Assembly (NCBI GenBank): GCA_947088345.1
Contig: CAMUGE010000014.1
Location: forward strand, 1-56,361
Reading direction: 5' to 3'
DNA length: 56,361 nucleotides
Origin: an uncultured Roseburia sp.
Lineage (GTDB): Bacteria; Bacillota; Clostridia; Lachnospirales; Lachnospiraceae
This document shows, in pieces, positions 896-49,626 of the stretch. Position numbers and translations under genes: made by a program. Numbering within the stretch: position 1 is the stretch's first letter; each line of letters opens with the position of its first letter. The notes beneath the pieces were generated by a model. It was not told the origin of the DNA and did not search any database. It worked only from the letters and a program-made list of their open reading frames with translations.

Positions 896-1093
896 TGCTC
901 TACTATATCTGATCATACATGACAAACAACAGATTAGAGATTCCGCAGAGCGGAATCATAGGGGTTCCTGTAAAAAATAAATATTTCGCATGTTGTTTTG
1001 CGTCTACGCGCTGCAAAGCCATAAATGACTTCCCATAAATGATTTGCCACAAAGTCCCTTATGCGCAGCGGCAGCGCAGAAATGAGGATTATT

Positions 1094-3794: not shown

Positions 3795-3985
3795 CTGCTC
3801 TGTCCGGATATTTCGACTTGGCACACTGTCAACCGGCCTTCTCAGATAAAATCCAATGGCTTTTCCCCAACTTGTGGCTTTGGGTCAGGACCCCCTCAAT
3901 TGAGGGATAACAGTGTTTCGTATATGCCTTACGGCGACGGGCTCGTACAGGATTTTCACCTGTTTCCCCGGACAGTACAAGATCT
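3795..3985 (-). promoter_or_regulatory. Cobalamin riboswitch
   Basis: Read on the minus strand, the leader contains the conserved GGGAAACAGGTGAAAATCC block (B12 riboswitch core, around 3949-3968) followed by a CGAGCCCGTCGCCGT segment. An 8-bp closing helix is formed by CTGTCCGG (3968-3975) and CCGGACAG (3800-3807). The 3' part has GTGCCAAGTCGAAATATCCGG, in the place of the family's usual end motif. A GC-rich mini-hairpin plus five T residues (3760-3777) follows and may be the expression platform. It would repress the lipoprotein/ECF pair when the cobalamin pool is full. Confidence 0.85.
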
Positions 3986-5070: not shown

Positions 5071-5270
5071 TCTAACCTCCATGATCCCGCTTCCCGGAAT
5101 CTCTTATCCAGAGCGTGAAACTTAGTACTTGTTGGCGCGCGAACCTGTTTCACGTTTTGCCCTCTGGCATGAGCCTTACAAGTACTTTTCACGCTTCCCC
5201 CCATGTCGCGGCTCTGCCGCAACTCTAATCCAGATGATAAATGCCGTATTTCAGGCATTTCTCAGTGTGA
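5071..5270 (-). repeat. Intercistronic hairpin element, copy A
   Basis: The gap between asnB and the acyltransferase gene is filled with stem-loops. A long hairpin spans 5113-5194 (GCGTGAAA with TTTCACGC, GTACTTG with CAAGTAC) and carries GCGCGCGAACCTGTTTC at 5135-5151. CATGTCGCGGCTCTGCCGC (5202-5220) and a small hairpin with arms AAATGCC/GGCATTT (5239-5260) follow on the asnB side. The same blocks occur in copy B at 13165-13350 but with the two short hairpin blocks in exchanged positions. In the transcribed direction it ends in ATGGAGGTTAGAATG, giving the acyltransferase its ribosome site. Confidence 0.75.
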
Positions 5271-5286
5271 GTCTATTGTAGCTGAT

Positions 5287-7155
5287 TTAAAACTCCTGCC
5301 GGATCATCGCCCGCTCCCACAGATACGGCTGAATGCGGTTCCAGATATCGGCGGCCTGATGAAAGGTCGCATTTTTATTCTGCAAAAACTCCTGCAGATC
5401 GGCACGCACTTTTGCAGGATCACGAATCAGACTGCACTCCGCAAACGCTTTACTTGCCGCAGTATCCTCAAAAAACTGACGGTACGGCCCTCGCATCCAA
5501 TCCAAAATGGGCGCGTTAAAACCAAGTTTCGTTCTTCTGTATGCAATTTCTTTTGGCATAAACGCCGCCCCGGCATCGCGCACAATGGACTTTGAAAAAC
5601 CGCCGTGCAGTTTGGACTGCCAGCCAATCGAGAATGCAAATTCCACAATGCGGTAATCGAGAAACGGCATTCGAATCTCTACTCCGGCGGCCATACTGTC
5701 GCGGTCGTAATTGCGCAGCAATGTAGGTAAGATCGTTTCATGTGTCGAGACAAACAGCGTCTTATTCAGATGATCAAGACGGTTCCAATTAAGATGCGTC
5801 GCATAGGCGCTCTTTACATCGACCCTGCCAAGCGCCTTTTTCGCATAATATTTTGCCATATAACCCCGGTAGAGACGGTTTCTCGCCTTTTTAAACGCAG
5901 GAGAGCCGACCTTGACGCCCTCGCTCTCATCCTGATTTAAATACGCTGTTGTAATCTGATTCACCTGTTCTCTTCCCTTTGCATCCGGATAGGCGTGCAG
6001 CAAATCAAATCCATATCCTGCAAAGAGCTCATCCGCTGCATGTCCGTCTAATGAAACTGTTGTCCCATATTCCTGTTCTTTTTTATATAATTCCATCATC
6101 GGAACCTGCGGGTTTCCCCAGAGTTCTTCCATACAGTAAATCTGCCGCAAAAACTCCTGCTCGGAAACTGCGTCATCCACATTCATGAACGTGTGCGGAA
6201 TACCAAGAAAATCGGTCACTTTTTTCGCATATTGCGTCTCATCCAGTTTTGTGCCCGGGAAACAGGCCACGTAGGCATGCTGCCAGTCCGCGCTGGCACG
6301 CGCGTCCGGGTTATTTTTTGAAATCTTGGCCATCGCACAGATGACGGCGGAGGAGTCAATCCCCCCGCTTAATCCTGTGCCAAGCGTCACGTCGCTTCGC
6401 ATCCTGATTTTGCAGGCATCCAGAAACAATTCACGAAACAGTTCTACCTGCTCCTCGTAAGATGACGGAACATCATCTCTTAGATGATCGAGCGTATTCC
6501 ACCATCTCTGCAATGTAATATTTCCTTTGCGCACCCAAGCAATATGACCTGCAGGAAAACGTCTGATTCCCTCAATCAGACACTCTTCCTCCGACTCATA
6601 GTGGTTGTCGGCAAAATACCGGTCAAACATCCGCACATTCGGTTTTACTTCGGGAAGCATCGGCAAAAGCGCTTTCATCTCGGAGGCAAAAGCAAAGCCC
6701 CCGCCCGGGAGCTGTGCATAAAACAGCGGTTTTACGCCAAAACGGTCGCGTGACAGAAACAGAATCTGTTCGGTCCGATCCCAGATTGCAAAAGCCCACA
6801 TGCCGTTAAACCGATCCACGCATTTTTCTTTCCATTCACAATAGGCGGCAAGAATCACTTCCGAATCACTGTCGCCTCGAAACCGGTAACCCTTTTTCTC
6901 CAGCTGCTGCCGTATCTCGATGAAATTGTAGATTTCACCGTTATAGGTCAGATAATAGCGGTCGTCTGCATAAGCCATCGGCTGGCTCCCGTTCTGCGAA
7001 AGGTCTAATATGGAAAGCCGCCTGTGTCCAAGCGTCACATCGCCTTCCTGCCAGAGCCCAAAGCCGTTCGGCCCGCGGTGCGTCAAGGTATTTAAACATT
7101 TCATTGCAAGTTCCCTGTCTGTTTTCTGATTCATTACGCCATAAATTCCACACAT
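5287..7155 (-). CDS. asnB: Asparagine synthase (glutamine-hydrolysing), AsnB type
   Basis: The 622-residue protein starts MCGIYGVMN; Cys2 is the class II glutaminase nucleophile. The N-terminal half has the expected THRGPNG and NGEIYNF segments; the C-terminal half has the ATP-binding SGGIDSS loop near residue 265 and the synthetase core. A GGGAGG site lies just before the ATG. The reaction is transfer of glutamine nitrogen to a carboxylate. In surface-polysaccharide operons such enzymes often amidate sugar acids rather than make free asparagine. Here it lies between the WecG/TagA transferase (16-base gap) and copy A of the repeat, so amidation of a glycan component is a reasonable alternative to a housekeeping role. 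Confidence 0.9.
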   Translation of the reverse strand: MCGIYGVMNQKTDRELAMKCLNTLTHRGPNGFGLWQEGDVTLGHRRLSILDLSQNGSQPMAYADDRYYLTYNGEIYNFIEIRQQLEKKGYRFRGDSDSEVILAAYCEWKEKCVDRFNGMWAFAIWDRTEQILFLSRDRFGVKPLFYAQLPGGGFAFASEMKALLPMLPEVKPNVRMFDRYFADNHYESEEECLIEGIRRFPAGHIAWVRKGNITLQRWWNTLDHLRDDVPSSYEEQVELFRELFLDACKIRMRSDVTLGTGLSGGIDSSAVICAMAKISKNNPDARASADWQHAYVACFPGTKLDETQYAKKVTDFLGIPHTFMNVDDAVSEQEFLRQIYCMEELWGNPQVPMMELYKKEQEYGTTVSLDGHAADELFAGYGFDLLHAYPDAKGREQVNQITTAYLNQDESEGVKVGSPAFKKARNRLYRGYMAKYYAKKALGRVDVKSAYATHLNWNRLDHLNKTLFVSTHETILPTLLRNYDRDSMAAGVEIRMPFLDYRIVEFAFSIGWQSKLHGGFSKSIVRDAGAAFMPKEIAYRRTKLGFNAPILDWMRGPYRQFFEDTAASKAFAECSLIRDPAKVRADLQEFLQNKNATFHQAADIWNRIQPYLWERAMIRQEF

Positions 7156-7171
7156 CTTTCTTACCTCCCGG

Positions 7172-7909
7172 CTAACCCCTCTCTTTGTGCAAAAGCCACA
7201 GATATCTGGTATTTGTTACAAAATAACGCTTTAGCAGACGCCTTGGCTCCTGTAAAAGCCGGTAGAGCCATTCCAGACTTAACTTCTGCATAATACGGGG
7301 CGCTCGTTTGATATTGCCGGCATAATAGTCGAACCCGGCTCCCACCCCAATCATCACACCGTTCACTTTTCCTTTATGCTCATACATCCAGTTTTCCTGT
7401 TTGGGCGCGCCAAGACCCACCCAGATAATATCGGCGCCCGCATCATTGATTCTCGAAACGGAAGCTTTATCCTCCTCTTTCGTGAGTGTACGAAACGGCG
7501 GAGATTCCATCCCGGCAACAGACAGATGCGGGTATTCGTCATTTAGTTTCTTTCTCATCATGGCAAGTGTTTCTTCTTTGCCGCCATAAAAATAATGTCT
7601 CATATGATTTTTGCGTCCAAACAGCGCAAGCATTAAATCAGGCCCCGTCACACGCTCTGCACCGGGAAATCCGTGCCGCCTGCTGTAAACGGAAAGGGGC
7701 TTTCCGTCCGGCAGCACAAAGGCGGCTTCCCTTTGAACTCTGTGATAAGCGGGATTATCATGCGCCATAACTGTAGTGTGCACATTGCCGACACAGATGT
7801 ATGCGCCGCGCAAATCCTCTATCCCCCGTTCAATCCGCTCTACCGTATCAGCCATATTAGTTACAAGAATTTCCGTACCGAGTATATTACAGCATTTCTT
7901 TTCTGTCAT
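7172..7909 (-). CDS. WecG/TagA/CpsF family glycosyltransferase (GT26)
   Basis: The start at 7909 is favoured over 7939 because AGGTGGG lies 5 bases upstream, while the earlier ATG has none. The 245-residue protein has the family pattern: an N-terminal VTNM segment, FYGGKEETL near the middle, and the strongly conserved WVGLGAPKQENWM block. Members transfer N-acetylmannosamine or a related sugar onto undecaprenyl-linked N-acetylglucosamine at the inner face of the membrane, an early step in teichoic acid or enterobacterial-type glycan assembly. In this operon it probably adds the second sugar of a lipid-linked repeat unit. The actual donor sugar is not predictable from sequence. Confidence 0.9.
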   Translation of the reverse strand: MTEKKCCNILGTEILVTNMADTVERIERGIEDLRGAYICVGNVHTTVMAHDNPAYHRVQREAAFVLPDGKPLSVYSRRHGFPGAERVTGPDLMLALFGRKNHMRHYFYGGKEETLAMMRKKLNDEYPHLSVAGMESPPFRTLTKEEDKASVSRINDAGADIIWVGLGAPKQENWMYEHKGKVNGVMIGVGAGFDYYAGNIKRAPRIMQKLSLEWLYRLLQEPRRLLKRYFVTNTRYLWLLHKERG

Positions 7910-7959
7910 ATGTCCCACCTTTTTCTGATTTACAGACATGACTGTTTTTTTTATTTTAC

Positions 7960-8778
7960 CTATTTTTTTATGGTAACCAACGGAACATTTCCGAGAAAGG
8001 ACGGCAGCAGGCTAAATGTTGAGTTGTAACTTCCCAGAATCTTTTTACAGCGTGAGAGCGCAAGCATCTCAACCATTGCGTCTGTAAGCCCTTCTTTGGA
8101 ATTGCGGTCAATCACACCCTTATCATAAAAGAGAAGTTCCAGATCCGGCAGCAGCTTTTTCAGTTCCAGCCTTACCTGCGCATCGTCCGTGGCGACAAAA
8201 AAACGGGCGTTCCGGCAGCAGTCTGCCTCTCTCCTCATCTCCTGCGCAAACAGTGAGAGCGGACTGTTTGCGATCGCCTCCGTATGATCGCTTCTGCGCA
8301 CATGTACGCCGACCGTATCATTCCCGATCCGTTCAAACAATTCCTGTCCTTTCTTTTCCACCGCAGACGCCGGCTTTAAAAACGAGAAACAGGACGGCTC
8401 CGGCTCGCAGACCGGTCCGAATGTCTTAAAATAAATACGAGGCGTTTCGGATATCAACTGAAACAATCCGGCATATCCCCGCTCCTCTTTGATTTTTTCC
8501 ACATCGTCACATTCCAAAAATAAATCAGCACGGCTGCGCCAGCTTTTTTTCGTACGATTTCCCATAAAATGAGCGATCGGCTCTTTCGAATAGCCGTTCT
8601 CCGAGACTTCCACTACGCGCATCGGCAGCTGAAATAATTCGTCCGCCCTGATATTACAGCCGGTTTCCCGTTTCCAGATTATGACAAGTTCCCGCCCTAA
8701 CTGCTTTGACAGCTCATACGATGTGCAAAGCCCGAGCAGCCTGTTTCCAAGCCCGGCGCAGGGTTCCGTAATCATCAT
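7960..8778 (-). CDS. Fucosyltransferase-like GT-B glycosyltransferase
   Basis: The 272-residue protein has an N-terminal glycine-rich AGLGNRLLG motif and a central HVRRSDH motif (residues 159-165). Both are typical of the alpha-1,2/alpha-1,6 and protein O-fucosyltransferase superfamily, which uses GDP-fucose or related donors. A GAGGAGG ribosome site precedes the start. The ATG overlaps the stop of the ABC transporter gene by 4 bases, so the two are translationally coupled. It shares the HVR-x-x-D motif with the GT11 protein two genes upstream but is otherwise quite different. The donor could be another GDP- or CDP-deoxyhexose. Confidence 0.7.
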   Translation of the reverse strand: MMITEPCAGLGNRLLGLCTSYELSKQLGRELVIIWKRETGCNIRADELFQLPMRVVEVSENGYSKEPIAHFMGNRTKKSWRSRADLFLECDDVEKIKEERGYAGLFQLISETPRIYFKTFGPVCEPEPSCFSFLKPASAVEKKGQELFERIGNDTVGVHVRRSDHTEAIANSPLSLFAQEMRREADCCRNARFFVATDDAQVRLELKKLLPDLELLFYDKGVIDRNSKEGLTDAMVEMLALSRCKKILGSYNSTFSLLPSFLGNVPLVTIKK

Positions 8779-10529
8779 GAGTTTTCTACCTCCTCGTTCT
8801 CCTGTCGGGTAACAGTACCGTTTTCGACCTTATATACTATATTGCAGTTACGTATTGTCGTAAGACGGTGCGCAATAATCAGCATTGTCATTTTTCCCTG
8901 CAGATGGTCAATCGCCTCCATCACGGCAGCTTCTGTCTCCGTGTCGAGCGCCGAAGTCGCCTCGTCCAAAACAAGAACTTCCGGATTTCGGTACAGCGCG
9001 CGCGCAATGCCGATCCGCTGCCTCTGACCGCCGGAGATGCGCACGCCGCCCTCCCCGATCATAGTATCAAGGCCATGTTCCAGCCCCGCAACAAAGGTAT
9101 CGAGCTGCGCTTTCTTTAGCGCTTCCCAAATCTGTGCTTCGTCAATATCGTCCCCCTGGCCGAATGCGATATTGTTGCGTATCGTATCGTCAAGCATAAA
9201 AATAGTCTGCGGTATATATCCGATCTTGTCATGCCAGCCGCGGTACGATTCGCTGATATTCACTCCGTCCGCGGTAATTGCACCCCTGTCCGGCTTTAAA
9301 ACGCCAAGAATCAGATCGACAATCGTTGTCTTTCCCGCTCCTGACGGCCCGATAAATGCAGCCGATGCATTTTTGGGAATTGTCACATTGACATCTTTTA
9401 ACACAGGACTCTCGGTATCCGGATACTGGAATGTCATATGTTCCACACATATCTCTTTCTCCAGTGAAATCGGCTTATAATTTTTCTCTTTTTTAATCAC
9501 AATATCCATATCTTTAATCGCCGCATACTGATCTCCGATTTTGTGGAGCACAACGCCGTTATGGATGATAGACCCAAGATATTCCGACATTTTATTGGCC
9601 GACGGAAGCAGACAGAACGCTGACGCCGCAAATACGGCCAAAGTCTCTACAAACTGGGTCGAATCGACATCTGTCAGATTGATGCGCACAATAATTGCGC
9701 CCATTAAGCCGGCAATACAGACTGCCTCCATAACCGGTTTTGGAATCGAACTTAAAAACGCGTTCTGTTTGATGACATGTGTATAGATCCCGTTTTGCCG
9801 GCAAAACTCCTGTTCAAAATAAGGTTCCCGGTTGGCAATTTTTATCTCCTTGATGCCCCCGAACGCCTCCTGCATACACTGCAATACACCGGCGTTGTAT
9901 TTGCGGCGTTCTTCTCCGAATCTTGATAGAATACGTCTCAATTTTTTCATAAATAGAAAAACAAGCAGTATCATCGCCACTGCAACGCCGCATGTAATCA
10001 GCGGATCTTTCCAGAGAAGATACAAAAGCAGCAGGCCGCTCACGCAAACTTCTGACGCAAGCTGAAGCATATTTAAAACCGCCGCATAAAACATTTCCGG
10101 ATCAAAGTAGATATCCTGCAGGAGATTCGCACTGTTGTTTTTCAGAAAAAAGGTGTATTCCCGGCTGATATAATATTTCATCAGCTTATTCTGCATCTCG
10201 CGTTTTCCGTAATAGGAAAAACGATACTGCATGTTATTCATAAAGATTACAAATGCATTTTTTCCGATATAGACAAGCATAATCAGCACTGCCAAAAGCG
10301 TGACCAGCTGATTTGTATCGCTAAGAGAAAGCATATCGTAGATCATTTTGATCAGATCGCTTTTTAGCAGCTCTTCCGGACTCATAACCGCCTGAATAAA
10401 CGGTGTGAGCACCGAGACGCTGAGCAGGCTGACAAAGGAATTAACTAAAATTAAAAATGCCATTCCCGCCAGATTGCGCTTCTGTCTGCCGCTGAACACT
10501 TTAAAAACACTTTTTAACATTTCTTTCAT
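8775..10529 (-). CDS. ABC transporter, fused permease-ATPase (lipid-linked glycan flippase-like)
   Basis: The 584-residue half-transporter has an N-terminal membrane domain (about residues 18-330, six helices) and a C-terminal ATPase domain. Visible motifs are Walker A GPSGAGKTT (394-402), signature SGGQRQR (499-505), Walker B VLVLDEATSALD (517 onwards) and the switch His at 554. This is the MsbA/PglK layout; it would act as a homodimer. In a polysaccharide operon with no recognisable Wzx flippase, PglK-like translocation of a lipid-linked oligosaccharide is the best guess. Export of another lipid or peptide cannot be excluded. Start codon choice between residues 1 and 4 is uncertain. Confidence 0.85.
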   Translation of the reverse strand: MKEMLKSVFKVFSGRQKRNLAGMAFLILVNSFVSLLSVSVLTPFIQAVMSPEELLKSDLIKMIYDMLSLSDTNQLVTLLAVLIMLVYIGKNAFVIFMNNMQYRFSYYGKREMQNKLMKYYISREYTFFLKNNSANLLQDIYFDPEMFYAAVLNMLQLASEVCVSGLLLLYLLWKDPLITCGVAVAMILLVFLFMKKLRRILSRFGEERRKYNAGVLQCMQEAFGGIKEIKIANREPYFEQEFCRQNGIYTHVIKQNAFLSSIPKPVMEAVCIAGLMGAIIVRINLTDVDSTQFVETLAVFAASAFCLLPSANKMSEYLGSIIHNGVVLHKIGDQYAAIKDMDIVIKKEKNYKPISLEKEICVEHMTFQYPDTESPVLKDVNVTIPKNASAAFIGPSGAGKTTIVDLILGVLKPDRGAITADGVNISESYRGWHDKIGYIPQTIFMLDDTIRNNIAFGQGDDIDEAQIWEALKKAQLDTFVAGLEHGLDTMIGEGGVRISGGQRQRIGIARALYRNPEVLVLDEATSALDTETEAAVMEAIDHLQGKMTMLIIAHRLTTIRNCNIVYKVENGTVTRQENEEVENS

Positions 10530-10552
10530 ATCCGCTTACTGCCTTTCTGCCT

Positions 10553-11407
10553 TTATACAATAATCCAGTCTTTCTGTTTCATCCGCTCGCTTAAAATATC
10601 CTGCGGCATTACTACCGTCTTCTGTGGAAATGGATTTAGATATGCAGCCCAAGTGGAATAAGTACTGTTTGATAAAATTTGATTTTTACAGGACGCCATC
10701 AGAAAAAATTCGTCCACGTCCGAAAATTCCCCAAACTCCTCAATAAATGTAATACGGCTGCCGCCCACTGCATCGACAACAGGTTTAACGGCCCCCATCG
10801 CTTTCTTTCTATCATTGGTAAACACCAGATAATAAACGCCCGGGGCGCGCTCTTCCATCTGCATTGCGGCGCGGTAAAAATAGCTTTCCGTTGGACCGCC
10901 GATATCGCCGCCTCTGACATGAAGCGCACAGGTATTGGAATGAGAAAATACATTCCTGCATTTTCTTACCGTACTGCTCTGTGCATAGGCCGGCGTCATC
11001 ATCGCGCAGATCTCTCCCAGATACTCTTCAAAATACGGCAGATGCTGCCAGTAACCAAGCAGATACTTATTGCGCAGTTTCTTTTTTTCAAATACGCGCG
11101 GATCGATATCGTCTACCGTATACTTTCCGTCACGGTTTAAATAAACTTCGCGTTCCATAATCACATGATATTTCAGGTTCCTGCGCACTTTTTTATATAC
11201 TTTCTGTAATGTCGTCCGGTTTGGAAATGAGATACGCTTCTCATATTTTAAGTGAAAATTGTCCAGTTCAAACGTCCGAAGCGAAGAATTGTCACAGTCC
11301 GAGGTGTCCAGTGTCAGTAAATCACCGTCGCGCCTCGCAGCCGCGTAACCGCACGCATAATTAAAAAGCTGGTTGCCCATTCCGTCCCCGATTTTTACTA
11401 CAATCAT
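10553..11407 (-). CDS. Alpha-1,2-fucosyltransferase-like glycosyltransferase (GT11)
   Basis: The 284-residue protein begins with the GT11 hallmark GDGMGNQLFNYA and contains LHVRGGDI near residue 162. Family members usually have H-V-R-R-G-D; here the second arginine is replaced by glycine (H163-V-R-G-G-D), which may alter donor binding. The C-terminal LSNSTYSTWAAYL segment is also typical. The enzyme should add L-fucose (from GDP-fucose) or a similar deoxysugar in alpha-1,2 linkage to a growing glycan in the cytoplasm. No GDP-fucose synthesis gene is in the window. Its ATG overlaps the stop of the upstream polytopic membrane protein by 4 bases. Confidence 0.85.
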   Translation of the reverse strand: MIVVKIGDGMGNQLFNYACGYAAARRDGDLLTLDTSDCDNSSLRTFELDNFHLKYEKRISFPNRTTLQKVYKKVRRNLKYHVIMEREVYLNRDGKYTVDDIDPRVFEKKKLRNKYLLGYWQHLPYFEEYLGEICAMMTPAYAQSSTVRKCRNVFSHSNTCALHVRGGDIGGPTESYFYRAAMQMEERAPGVYYLVFTNDRKKAMGAVKPVVDAVGGSRITFIEEFGEFSDVDEFFLMASCKNQILSNSTYSTWAAYLNPFPQKTVVMPQDILSERMKQKDWIIV

Positions 11408-13164
11408 GACGCATTTCCCTCCACAGGTTCGCAGACCGTATACTCCTCTGTCGCAAAGACTTCCCTGTAATTGTGCTGCTCCACAAAATCAACAACAAGG
11501 CGAATCTTTGGCTTATCTTCCTCCACCGCTGTCTTGCAAAAGACAACAATCGGTTCCAGTTCCGCCTCTTTTAACTGTGCGTCTATCTTTTCGTAAGTAA
11601 TAAATTCCGTCTCAATCCAGCCCCCGCACCATGCGTTAAACGGCGGAATGCCGGACAGATAATTTAAGATCGGCGCCGCACCGGCAACCAGAAGTTTTCG
11701 CTCTCCGCCCTCGTATTGTTTTAAAAACCCTGTGATTTCCTCCAGTTCGTCCACCATATCCGCCTCATAACTGATTCCTCTTAACTCCGGCAGCACAAAA
11801 GCTTTTACTTCTTTCTCCGTCGTCATACGCGCTCTGGTCAGATACAGGCTCTGGTATGCGGTCAGTCCCACACACCAGACCGTGACGGCAAGCGTCAGCA
11901 TAACGCCAACCGGATGGCTTCCCGTCAAAAACCGACGCAACCTGCCCTCTGCGCCGCCCTGTCGCTCATTTTCTGCCCAAAAGCCCGTTCTCCTGATCCT
12001 CTCTCCGATACAGACTGCAATAAACGGAAGTACAAAATAACTTTCATTACAGATATGCTGTATCCCGGTATTAGATCCGATCGGCATAATCACGGTTAAA
12101 ATTCCCGCGCAGAGCGCCAGATTTTTAAATTCCTGCGAATATGTCCGGTCGCGCAAAATAAGAATCAAACAGATATAGATTAACGCCACCAGAATCGCCA
12201 GCGCATTGATATAAGCGCCAATGATCCCATAAAGGAACGAAAAGCCCGGCAGACCTTTAAGACCGCCAAAATATCCGACGATCAGAACCGCAATCACTGC
12301 CGGTATGCCGATCAGAAAAACAGGAACGCTTTTTTTCCACCGTTTGGGAATCAGCGAGATCAGATAACACGCCGCTATCAGCAGGGCCCCTCTTAACGCC
12401 CCTTTTGCGTTGCTTACAATCATATTGCCAATGGTATGACCGTCCTTTGAATTTCCTGCATAAAGAAACATCTCTTTTATCATTTCCGTATATTCACCCA
12501 GCCCGCAGGTCGCCTGAATCAACAAAAACGCCACGAAAAGACCTGCCAGAAACCCCAGGATACAAAACAGGATCTGACGAATCAAATAACTTTTGTCTCT
12601 TTTTTTATAGAAATCATAAAATAAAACTGCAAAGACTGCAAACTGCATCATGGAGGAAATCTTGCACAGGCATGCCATCACAATAAAAAATACCGATCCC
12701 GAGAGGAAAAGCGGCTTTTTCTCATTAAGACCGCGCACCAGAAAATAAAGTCCGGTCAGCGCCATCACCGCCACTCCGGTTGCATAGATAAAATAATGGA
12801 AATTACATTTTGCAAACAAAACCGCGAGCGCAAGCGCCGGAAGCACAAGCGCATCGTCTCTGTAACGACGGTACAGCCGATAACTGATGAAACAAAAATA
12901 ATAACAGACCAATACCCATAATATTTCCACGCAAAGATAAGTTGGGATCGACAAAAATCCGCAGATTTTAAGCCACACGCCGCCAATCAGTTCCGACAGC
13001 AGAATCGGCAGATAGACGCTTGTGATATCCTCAAAACAAAACCGATACTGATTAATACTCAGCCCTACATCGGAAATATCCACGCCATAGAGAATCCCCG
13101 ACAACGGAAAAACCGGTATTACCAATATCGTCACAATCCAAAAAATTTTGTAAGCCCGTTTCAT
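11404..13164 (-). CDS. Polytopic membrane protein, probable GT-C type glycosyltransferase
   Basis: The 586-residue protein has at least ten to twelve hydrophobic segments up to about residue 450, followed by a ~130-residue soluble C-terminal domain. An acidic pair (VDISDVGLS) lies in the first extracytoplasmic loop, as in GT-C enzymes that use polyprenyl-phosphate sugars. I see no closer family match. The start at 13164 is set by GGAGG 5 bases upstream; the in-frame ATG at 13176 is part of that ribosome region. Copy B of the repeat lies directly upstream. With the GT2 and SMR genes further upstream it fits a three-part lipid-carrier sugar-modification system, this protein being the final transferase outside the membrane. 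Confidence 0.65.
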   Translation of the reverse strand: MKRAYKIFWIVTILVIPVFPLSGILYGVDISDVGLSINQYRFCFEDITSVYLPILLSELIGGVWLKICGFLSIPTYLCVEILWVLVCYYFCFISYRLYRRYRDDALVLPALALAVLFAKCNFHYFIYATGVAVMALTGLYFLVRGLNEKKPLFLSGSVFFIVMACLCKISSMMQFAVFAVLFYDFYKKRDKSYLIRQILFCILGFLAGLFVAFLLIQATCGLGEYTEMIKEMFLYAGNSKDGHTIGNMIVSNAKGALRGALLIAACYLISLIPKRWKKSVPVFLIGIPAVIAVLIVGYFGGLKGLPGFSFLYGIIGAYINALAILVALIYICLILILRDRTYSQEFKNLALCAGILTVIMPIGSNTGIQHICNESYFVLPFIAVCIGERIRRTGFWAENERQGGAEGRLRRFLTGSHPVGVMLTLAVTVWCVGLTAYQSLYLTRARMTTEKEVKAFVLPELRGISYEADMVDELEEITGFLKQYEGGERKLLVAGAAPILNYLSGIPPFNAWCGGWIETEFITYEKIDAQLKEAELEPIVVFCKTAVEEDKPKIRLVVDFVEQHNYREVFATEEYTVCEPVEGNAS

Positions 13165-13350
13165 ACTAACCTCCATGTCGCGGCTCTGCCGCTACTCAAA
13201 TCCGGATGAGACTTCGTACTTCTTCGCGCGCGAACCTGTTTCGCGTCAGCGCCTTTGCTGCGAGTGATTAGAAGTACTTCTCACACTACCCTCCATGATT
13301 CCGCTCCCAGGAATCTCAAATCCGTATGAATAACGCCTGTTTTTGGCGTA
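13165..13350 (-). repeat. Intercistronic hairpin element, copy B
   Basis: The gap between the SMR gene and the GT-C-like gene carries CATGTCGCGGCTCTGCCGC at 13174-13192 and a long hairpin with GTACTTC (13216-13222) pairing GAAGTAC (13271-13277). GCGCGCGAACCTGTTTC at 13226-13242 is identical to copy A. Next comes the GATTCC/GGAATC hairpin (13297-13315) and a small AACGCC/GGCGT hairpin. Compared with copy A the first and third blocks have changed places. The transcribed end, ATGGAGGTTAGTATG, differs from copy A at one base. Confidence 0.75.
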
Positions 13351-15631: not shown

Positions 15632-15709
15632 TGATCTCCTCCGTCTTTCACATGCCAACCCGCATGCCGCAGCTTCGCTCCGACACAAACGAGCGCGCAG
15701 AATCTGGCG

Positions 15710-15814
15710 CCGCTCATGGAATGTCTTTCGGGATTCTCCCGCGTGAAAAGGCCCACGCCTGAAAATCAGATGTTCTTAGCGAAATGCCCGTTGGCATAAG
15801 CTTTGAACCTTTTC
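15710..15814 (-). repeat. Intercistronic hairpin element, copy C (diverged)
   Basis: A long hairpin is closed by GTGAAAAGG (15743-15751) and CCTTTTC (15808-15814). The segment GAAATGCCCGTTGGCATAAG aligns with the TTTTGCCCTCTGGCATGAG part of copy A, and the flank TCTCACACTTCC matches copies A and B. The other blocks are not conserved. One arm touches the stop codon of the epimerase gene. Confidence 0.5.
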
Positions 15815-16732
15815 TCACACTTCCATCGTAAGCCACCAGTCTCTTGTTCGCCGGCACCCTTCTCCAAAGCTGATTTTTGCCTCAAATCCCGTATCGTCTT
15901 TTGTCTTTGTACAGTCAAAATCTTCTAACGGCTGGTTGACGCCGGTAAACGGAATATCGCCGAAAATAAAATCAAGATCCGGCGCAATCGCCGCTTTCAT
16001 CTCAAGCAAAAATTCCTTTAACGGCTTTGCATGCGAAGATCCGATCAGATATTCGTGAAACGGTTTTCCGTTTTCACCGATCAGATAAAATGCCCGCGCC
16101 ACGTCGTCGATATAGACAAAATCATAATTCTGCGTTCCGGCCGTAAACTGGGGTGACTCCCCGCGGATACATTTTTGTACTGTCGTATTTACCATGCGCG
16201 GACTTTTCTCGCCGACGCCGTATGCATTTGTTATCATTGCCCATACAAGATCAATTCCGATTTGCGCCGCAACGGATTTACACATCGTGTGCGCCGCCAG
16301 TTTTCCGCTTCCATAGATATATCCAGGGCCAGGACGGTTTCCCGCCTGAAAAACTGCCCGCATTGTCTCAAGTTCCATAATGCTTCCGGCATTGACAAAC
16401 CGGCTGCAGCCGCATTCTTTTGCCAGACGCAGGCAGTCCACGGTCCACTGGGCATTTTTCAGCTGCAGCTGCGTATCCGCCCGCTCCGCTCCGGCCGAAC
16501 CGGCCCACGCAAAATGATAGAATGTATCACAGCCGCATTCTTTTAACTGCGAGACCATCCCGCCGGCGCGATCGAGCGAAAACGGAAAGATCTCAACCAG
16601 ACTGCTCTTTGGCAGATTGCGGCCGGAACCATTTCTGCACAGTGCAACGACCTCTATTTCCTGGTTTACCAGCTCTTTGATCAGGGCGCTGCCAACAAAT
16701 CCGTTTGCCCCGGTTACCATTACTTTTTTCAT
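15815..16732 (-). CDS. NAD(P)-dependent nucleotide-sugar epimerase/reductase (SDR), RfbJ-like
   Basis: The 305-residue extended short-chain dehydrogenase has the nucleotide-binding TGANGFVGSA loop at the start, a Ser in VNAGSIME and the catalytic YGSGK (Y-x-x-x-K) around residues 140-145. It follows rfbG with a 26-base gap. In CDP-sugar clusters this position is occupied by a 4-reductase such as CDP-abequose or CDP-paratose synthase. Here the 3-dehydrase RfbH is absent, so a 4-ketoreductase acting on the 4-keto-6-deoxy sugar (before or after epimerisation) is the most likely role. A plain 4-epimerase is an alternative. Confidence 0.75.
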   Translation of the reverse strand: MKKVMVTGANGFVGSALIKELVNQEIEVVALCRNGSGRNLPKSSLVEIFPFSLDRAGGMVSQLKECGCDTFYHFAWAGSAGAERADTQLQLKNAQWTVDCLRLAKECGCSRFVNAGSIMELETMRAVFQAGNRPGPGYIYGSGKLAAHTMCKSVAAQIGIDLVWAMITNAYGVGEKSPRMVNTTVQKCIRGESPQFTAGTQNYDFVYIDDVARAFYLIGENGKPFHEYLIGSSHAKPLKEFLLEMKAAIAPDLDFIFGDIPFTGVNQPLEDFDCTKTKDDTGFEAKISFGEGCRRTRDWWLTMEV

Positions 16733-32730: not shown

Positions 32731-32800
32731 CCTTAAAACAAGTTTTATGTCATCGCCTTAAAACAAGTTTTATGTCATCGCCTTAAAACAAGTTTTAAGG
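32731..32800 (-). repeat. Tandem 25-bp repeat at the end of spoVAB
   Basis: Two identical 25-base units (32731-32755, 32756-32780) are followed by a 20-base partial unit. Each begins CCTTAAAACAAGTTTTA. The last unit, CCTTAAAACAAGTTTTAAGG, is a perfect palindrome and overlaps the spoVAB stop codon. Replication slippage of a terminator-like palindrome is the simplest origin. Confidence 0.85.
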
Positions 32801-33223
32801 CGGGGAAAATCCGGTCAGAAAATAATACAGCGCCCCTGTAAATTTGCCAAGCGCCATTGCGGTTACCACCCACACAAGTCCGGTCTTTAAACGTATCCGA
32901 CGGAACATAATCGGAAATGTATTTAATATCTCGGCCAGAGACATTGCGATACAACCCACAAAGATCCCTGCCGACAGCCCGTAAATACAAAGGAACACCG
33001 GACCAAACGGCAGACGCAGATCTAAAAACACGGATGCAATATTCCCCAAAATACCGCCCAAAATAACTGCATTTTCAAAGCAAAGCTCATGTTTTGCACC
33101 TCTGCACTTGCCCATCAGCCTGGGAATCACGCCAATCACCATTAAAAAGGCAAATGTGCCCGCAGAAACTGCCACGCCGGAAGTAATGCCAAGAAATCCC
33201 AGAAAAATATGTTTAGCTAACAT
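32795..33223 (-). CDS. spoVAB: Stage V sporulation protein AB
   Basis: The start at 33223 (MLAKHIFLGFLGITSG) is chosen over 33256: it gives 142 residues, the usual SpoVAB length, and leaves an 11-base overlap with spoVAA instead of 44. The protein has about four membrane helices and the GVIPRLMGKC and LAEILNTFPI segments of SpoVAB. SpoVA proteins lie in the inner spore membrane and move dipicolinic acid during sporulation and germination. The other spoVA genes are not in the window. Confidence 0.9.
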   Translation of the reverse strand: MLAKHIFLGFLGITSGVAVSAGTFAFLMVIGVIPRLMGKCRGAKHELCFENAVILGGILGNIASVFLDLRLPFGPVFLCIYGLSAGIFVGCIAMSLAEILNTFPIMFRRIRLKTGLVWVVTAMALGKFTGALYYFLTGFSPP

Positions 33224-42438: not shown

Positions 42439-42485
42439 GAAAATACTAAGGCAGCGCACGAAGAGTGCAGCGCCTTAGTATTTTC
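42439..42485 (-). terminator. Terminator of the butyrate-pathway operon
   Basis: GAAAATACTAAGGC (42439-42452) and GCCTTAGTATTTTC (42472-42485) form a 14-bp stem with an inner GCAC/GTGC pairing, 12 bases after the etfA stop. Confidence 0.8.
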
Positions 42486-46500: not shown

Positions 46501-46622
46501 TGAAAATGTCCTCCTAATTTAATGTACTGAAATGAATGCTGTTTTTGCACTCTTTGCTGTAAAACGCAGCACTTCCCCGCATAACGCAGACTGACGTGAG
46601 CAGCAGAAGCGCTCCTCACAAC

Positions 46623-49582: not shown

Positions 49583-49626
49583 AAAAAGTGCAAAGTCCGT
49601 CAACTCGTCGGGACTTTGCACTTTTT
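49583..49626. terminator. Very strong bidirectional terminator
   Basis: AAAAAGTGCAAAGTCC (49583-49598) pairs base for base with GGACTTTGCACTTTTT (49611-49626), with a 12-base loop. Confidence 0.9.

Follow-up and report, generated by a model that had tools for sequence, protein, structure and literature searches.

Two gaps in a polysaccharide operon of an uncultured Roseburia sp. are copies of a repeated DNA element built of exchangeable hairpin blocks, and the repeat in the two gaps is beyond chance. The gaps lie in the window, which is the whole 56,361-nt stretch of DNA analysed here (contig CAMUGE010000014.1, assembly GCA_947088345.1). Our reading is a new family of mobile repeats of the BOX/REP kind in Lachnospiraceae, suited to gaps inside operons, and the probability that the copies are a non-autonomous mobile element whose home is the spacing between the genes of an operon is put at roughly two in three. 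Gut-type bacteria hold the element in abundance and a sister species offers unit-free sites for comparison; the element would also explain many odd hairpin gaps in Lachnospiraceae operons.

An earlier note on this DNA had pointed to strings common to the gaps at 5071-5270 (copy 1) and 13165-13350 (copy 2), and both strings are present. The unit limits in these gaps are 5072-5264 and 13166-13344, or about 1.5 units per gap. The copies in the window, as scored with R1, a covariance model for whole units, and with R2, a model for the long hairpin H1, are as follows.

908..968 (plus strand): unit fragment with GATTCC-type H3, then a D-like short unit (R1 29.9 bits; sequence)
5072..5193 (minus strand): complete unit with A-type H1, no H2 and GATTCC-type H3 (R1 140.7 bits, model 1-122)
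5113..5193 (minus strand): H1 hairpin within the unit 5072..5193 (R2 61.9 bits; fold z -4.64 for 5071-5220)
5194..5264 (minus strand): truncated unit with the 3' arm of a B-type H1, H2 of the GAGAAATGCC type, GCGGC-type H3 and CATGGGGGGAAG (R1 34.9 bits; sequence)
13166..13285 (minus strand): complete unit with B-type H1, almost no H2 and GCGGC-type H3 (R1 109.6 bits)
13204..13285 (minus strand): H1 hairpin within the unit 13166..13285 (R2 38.8 bits)
13286..13344 (minus strand): truncated unit with part of an H2 (GGCGTT type), GATTCC-type H3 and CATGGAGGGTAG (R1 25.5 bits, E 0.0014)
15655..15817 (minus strand): further degenerate unit, ahead of a dTDP-4-dehydrorhamnose 3,5-epimerase gene named by Pfam (R1 29.9 bits; R2 43.2 bits at 15757-15819; sequence)
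46557..46620 (minus strand): degenerate H1 alone (R2 33.7 bits, E 7.4e-5; sequence)

The right end CATGGAGGTTAG of the unit at 5072..5193 is followed one base on by the ATG of an acyltransferase gene (Pfam Acyl_transf_3), and an ATG likewise stands one base beyond the right end CATGGAGGTTAG of the unit at 13166..13285. The strings common to the two gaps fall within a 58-nt direct-repeat family (5180-5237, with 13152-13209 at 81% and 13272-13329 at 71%) and a 40-nt repeat pair (5116-5155 and 13207-13246, 88%).

The earlier note had proposed a search for further copies in the genome and its relatives, and both hold them. A blastn query with 5071-5290 against the genome itself (G000; 3.05 Mb in 80 contigs, a draft 90.5% complete) gave 78 pieces at E<=1, many of them between genes, and 73 at E<=0.001; sorting these 78 pieces by hand, together with additional places in the window, yielded 43 clusters. 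With R1, at least 57 units were found in this genome at E<=0.001 (57 of 766 candidates scored), and the stretches fetched from it hold 85 units in 47 arrays. Further places outside these stretches were found with R2, for example C1:53549. Across the genus, R1 matched 16 of 62 genomes at E<=0.001, with 46 units in the sister species G032, 12 in G023, six each in G020 and G004, and at most five in the other carriers. In a sample of the family, R2 matched 23 of 397 genomes and 20 of 334 genera at E<=1e-5, with at least 13 copies each in G000 and five other genomes; two edge rows, L285 and L397's locus L287, were left out of use. Of 391 genomes sampled from the class, five match: four Lachnospiraceae, including G000, and one genome of another family. 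H1 and H2 recur in other genera, as does the GATTTG-H3-ATGGRG part in G409, G393 and G334. A pattern scan of genome contigs returned 26 stretches, six of which were inspected: five came from one Roseburia MAG with elements or a fragment, and one was a chance match inside a gene. Plasmids and phages searched with one 104-nt query gave no match, nor did viral contigs scanned with one strict pattern.

Two observations on distribution stand apart. The genome of another family, G763, holds two element copies of opposite orientation, separated by about 7.6 kb (L360, G763:C11:28000-45000). The region also encodes a type II/IV secretion ATPase plus a CobT-like VWA protein and is perhaps a conjugative element carrying the repeat between families. 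In the fabD gap of G052 (L208), a D-type short unit, TTAG followed by the TGTGAAAAATAAG hairpin, lies ahead of fabD. Because R1 matches no unit in G052, the models may understate how far the short unit types have spread.

Read along the gene strand, a unit runs through YGTGA, the long hairpin H1, TCACR, in some units a hairpin H2, then GATTTGAG or a close variant, the hairpin H3, and CATGGRGGTTAG. The main forms of H1 are A and B, and in both an inner hairpin may be present or absent. H2 is absent or is one of three hairpins (GAATCCCC/GGGGATTC, GAAAAACGCC/GGCGTTTTTC or GAGAAATGCC/GGCATTTCTC), and H3 is either GATTCCGC/GCGGAATC or TCGCGGC/GCCGCGA. Shorter unit types, C and D, have the same start and follow the same plan. 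Units are about 60-170 nt long and their outer boundaries are fixed, with TAG directly before the initial YGTGA and CATGGRGGTTAG at the end. Inverted loops are found as well, AAAAACA and TGTTTTT on one stem, and H2 and H3 types are swapped between units. In copy 1, a truncated unit with a GCGGC-type H3 precedes an A unit with a GATTCC-type H3, and in copy 2, a truncated unit with a GATTCC-type H3 precedes a B unit with a GCGGC-type H3. The H3 types are reversed between the copies, in agreement with the description of hairpin blocks in exchanged order and of tandem units with shuffled loops. Copies within a species are near-identical, and the dominant subtypes are species-specific.

A long hairpin had also been reported for each gap. 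This holds fully for copy 1, where the minus strand of 5071-5220 folds at -55.8 kcal/mol (z -4.64) and 0 of 200 shuffles folded as well. In copy 2, single-sequence folding of two stretches did not beat shuffles (z +0.44 and -0.18), yet the H1 helix is present in the predicted structures. The compensatory changes that the earlier note had named as a check are present. In the genome's own set, 45 units passed a first filter and 42 were distinct and long enough; 27 of these and three units typed from G032 make up the alignment A1, whose 30 whole units have two-sided changes in 9 of 16 predicted pairs. In the alignment A2, which covers H1 alone in 32 sequences from 12 species picked by eye, 95.6% of cells are paired and 14 of 23 pairs have two-sided changes (120 cells), counts that are inflated by relatedness among the sequences and by the use of a structure derived from this same set. 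Sliding A2 by 1-3 columns leaves 30-45% of cells paired and 3-6 pairs with two-sided changes, and its measure of further pair types does not rise above shuffles (146 of 500 reach it).

Strong covariation, together with bases conserved across genera in unpaired positions (CTAA and CTAAG stretches are found among the conserved H1 columns), could also mark a conserved functional RNA between genes, such as a processing or stability element, that spread slowly and whose repeat nature is secondary. The codirectional placement behind an upstream frame, which was seen wherever such a frame was found (75 of 98 arrays), agrees with a functional RNA as well. However, among 118 distinct sequences G-U pairs are not clearly in excess of A-C mismatches (88 versus 46, or about 48 versus 39 when inner helices 4 and 5 are left out), counts compatible with either RNA or single-stranded DNA as the form under selection. 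Moreover, the host genes differ between species and the sites are not common by gene, units have been gained or lost between sister species, and near-identity among copies is a feature of single species. An RNA conserved for its function is therefore an improbable account of the family.

The 75 codirectional upstream frames, each an open frame of at least 60 codons, come from the set of 98 arrays, which covers 12 species within the genus; the adjacent TAG is the stop codon in 27 of them and the TGA inside YGTGA in 11, while no other adjacent stop occurs. A second set, defined by H1 starts, covers eleven species, five of them from other genera, and 48 of its 138 units were set aside as array-internal by a pattern and neighbour rule. 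Here TAG precedes 62 of the 90 first units and another triplet the remaining 28, and in 70 upstream frames the stop is the adjacent TAG in 28, an adjacent TAA or TGA in none, and a TGA within the element in 11. As background, 102 frames of at least 200 codons, taken as every such open frame on either strand and so including some that are not genes, end in TAA (61), TGA (22) and TAG (19). TAG is rare ahead of the units in G399 (1 of 4) and G430 (1 of 5). At the other end, 15 of 97 arrays are followed by an open frame whose start lies one base beyond the unit, and any other offset from 0 to 30 occurs in at most four. An in-frame ATG at -11, which is the ATG of CATGGRGG, is found in 19 of the 97. 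The one-base starts are clear in both window arrays and in L022, L029, L031, L110, L146, L168 and L177; they overlap another unit or look doubtful in L024, L030, L038, L165, L034 and L025. Of the three frames across the boundary TAGYGTGA, two meet a stop codon (TAG or TGA) and one a start codon, GTG.

The proposed tie to glycan genes was not supported. The host genes in the window include those for an acyltransferase, an asparagine-synthase-like protein, an ABC protein, an EamA protein and a dTDP-sugar epimerase. Elsewhere they include livG and livF, fabK in the sister species, and a sigma factor and a cation-efflux gene, the latter two named by eye. Because copies stand behind livG, livF, fabK, the sigma factor and the cation-efflux gene, the polysaccharide operon is just one among many hosts; host genes are diverse and glycan genes are not special. 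The earlier note had also considered recombination that reshuffles glycan genes, and no sign of it was noticed in the sites inspected.

The earlier suggestion of mobile mini-elements is supported by a comparison of G000 with the sister species G032 (draft, 87%), whose LivF and FabD proteins are 97% and 93% identical to those of G000. Units are present in one species and absent from the other at 12 sites, namely the fabK-fabD gap, the site behind livF, eight of 13 sites looked up in one direction and two of ten in the other. In the fabK-fabD gap, G000 has GGGGAATAG followed directly by AATGGGA, and G032 has GGGGAATAG, a 134-nt unit and CATGGGA. Behind livF, G032 has GGCGAATAG followed directly by GCAGACGGAGGATAGCTATGAAG, and G000 has the same beginning, then several units, and the end CAGACGGAGGATATGTATGAAG. 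For the wider comparison, flanks of 13 of 22 listed G000 sites were looked up in G032 and all 13 were found, while 10 of 15 G032 flanks were found in G000; remnants and unit-free sites were told apart by eye. The 13 G000 sites are unit-free in G032 in eight cases (C34, C16:47765, C12, C5, C11, C31, C67 and C43, with C67 and C43 holding 54-74 nt of other sequence instead of units), hold a remnant in two (C10 and C8) and are filled in three (C23, C56 and C45). The ten G032 sites are unit-free in G000 in two cases (L350 and L351), remnant-like in three (L349, L352 and L355) and filled in five, the filled pairs including L166/L354 with another unit type and L176/L347 with one unit more. At the window site 13165 both species carry units, but the modules differ (L177), and in the livG-livF gap the arrays of the two species likewise consist of different units. 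Among the 12 unit-free sites, five have a TAG where the units would be inserted (fabD, livF, C12, C34 and C16); since the other seven have none there, the element may bring part of the TAG itself. C34 and C16:47765 may be losses rather than virgin sites, because a boundary-like TAG followed by TGTGA is present there.

These last two sites raise the question of direction. The repeats might be ancestral, predating the split of the sister species and lost by recombination at their boundaries, so that apparent insertions are losses and gene conversion keeps the copies alike. Sites at which both species hold units but of different modules (livG-livF, three of 13 in the first comparison and five of ten in the second), the remnants in both genomes and the boundary-like sequence at the two unit-free sites are all consistent with such a history. 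Nevertheless, it is the least credible of the accounts weighed here, as remnant-free gaps are found at fabK-fabD in G000 and behind livF and at C12, C5, C11 and C31 in G032. The livG-livF gap argues in the same direction: livG ends in TAG in nine of 15 other species of the genus (TAA in five, TGA in one), and in eight of nine species with TAG that were tabulated the gap is only 3-35 nt, too short for a unit.

Adjacent typed units in G000 arrays are alike in 3 of 25 pairs, where shuffled labels give 8.5 (P 0.004). Unlike neighbours speak against plain tandem duplication and fit stepwise insertion behind the terminal TTAG of each unit, but preferential deletion of like neighbours by recombination could look the same. 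One array, C21:42657-42990, is a clear tandem triplication.

For a mobile element of this kind, the following mechanism may be proposed. A nicking-and-joining enzyme would insert the unit 3' of a TAG, and a single-strand type of enzyme is preferred because no terminal inverted repeats were seen across the unit and hairpins lie at both ends. Since the unit ends in TTAG, insertion would re-create the target, so that the next unit could land behind it and the array could grow. H2 and H3 would be swapped by recombination between shared boundaries and stems. With a stop codon in front and a GGRGG end that could act as a ribosome-binding site for the next gene, insertions would be tolerated within operons. 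In the mRNA, units would place hairpins between cistrons and would probably shift the stability or relative output of both genes.

A more specific candidate for the enzyme is the Y1 (HUH) transposase of the RAYT/IS200 kind. The copies would then be REP-like elements with TTAG as a GTAG-like tag, cut as single-stranded DNA; in REPs, GTAG is the cleaved tag (PMC3733652). A tetranucleotide immediately ahead of the hairpin, strand-specific placement and the lack of visible terminal inverted repeats would suit this enzyme, and Y1 genes occur in 22 of 62 genomes of the genus. In contrast, Y1_Tnp (PF01797), the one recombinase family searched, is absent from the drafts of G000 (90.5%) and G032 (87%), the two richest carriers in the genus, and a Y1 match is found in 5 of 16 carriers of the genus, one of them (G023) a fragment, compared with 17 of 46 other genomes. 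Among 13 carriers of other genera, seven give a Y1 match, in some cases to a fragment, and six have none (G409, G393, G257, G121, G334 and G361), although the Y1-free G409 and G393 hold at least 13 copies each. The Y1 transposase was rejected as mobiliser, as it is not linked to the carriers, and REP-like elements moved in this manner are an unlikely explanation.

The reading of the copies as a mobile element can be taken further. They may be family-wide intercistronic cassettes whose insertion, by an enzyme not yet recognised, is aimed at the stop-start junction (TAG, one base, start codon), with a built-in ribosome-binding site that restores translation of the next gene and with the TAGYGTGA boundary providing stops in two frames and a start in the third. 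This extension is tentative and, taken in all its parts, doubtful. If it were true, the intercistronic RNA of operons could be rewritten without breaking either gene. The stop-start placement makes target choice, array growth and the effect on operon output directly testable.

Several other features of the window were recorded alongside the element. A Cobalamin riboswitch match lies at 3806-3969 on the minus strand (34.5 bits, gathering threshold 31.5), upstream of small minus-strand genes. At 42439-42485, in a gap between minus-strand genes, there is a perfect-looking 21-nt inverted repeat with a CTAAGGC motif, which recalls the short H1 of G399; neither model matches there. A 25-nt sequence, CCTTAAAACAAGTTTTATGTCATCG, is present in three head-to-tail copies at 32731-32805, and a terminator-like 16-bp perfect inverted repeat with a 12-nt loop lies between two genes at 49583-49626.

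The best-known small interspersed repeats are those of Proteobacteria and streptococci. The core site of integron attC is GTTRRRY, which the element boundary GTTAGYG does not fit when the boundary sequences alone are compared. Group II introns start with GUGYG; a group II intron fragment was set aside by eye, as were the units as small reading frames. Rfam 15 gave no match over the units of the window (E<=5) or over ten relatives' loci (E<=1), in accord with the earlier statement that no named family was known, and a literature search, with subscription papers and preprints outside its scope, found no description of the family.

The element shares with MITEs and ERIC-like repeats a short, non-coding, highly folded form, many copies and insertions in operons, by general background and one published account (PMC3049150). 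Its unit ends, YGTGA and CATGGRGGTTAG, are not inverted repeats of each other, and inspection by eye gave no consistent target duplication; the 5' and 3' flanks of single units differ, and some arrays may be flanked by TAG at either end, also by eye. With REP/RAYT systems it has in common high-copy palindromes, a short tag just ahead of the hairpin and intergenic spread. In contrast to the GTAG-tagged REPs (PMC3733652), the tag here is TAG or TTAG, the sequence at the foot of the palindrome is usually TTAG, ATAG and similar, the units are longer and multi-hairpin, and the richest carriers, G000 and G032, lack a Y1 gene, as do 6 of 13 carriers elsewhere. The BOX elements of Streptococcus pneumoniae, in which boxA and boxC surround a variable number of boxB (PMC3049150), are likewise modular intergenic repeats of variable length and many copies, with predicted hairpins in transcripts and with gain and loss of modules between strains. 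Measured against that described layout, the present element differs in its succession of unlike whole units, its exchangeable H2 and H3, and its tie to TAG and stop-start junctions (PMC3049150). Overall, the family has no name in the sources searched and is like BOX and REP in kind; what distinguishes it is the link with TAG and the stop-start junction, together with a widely conserved, covarying hairpin.
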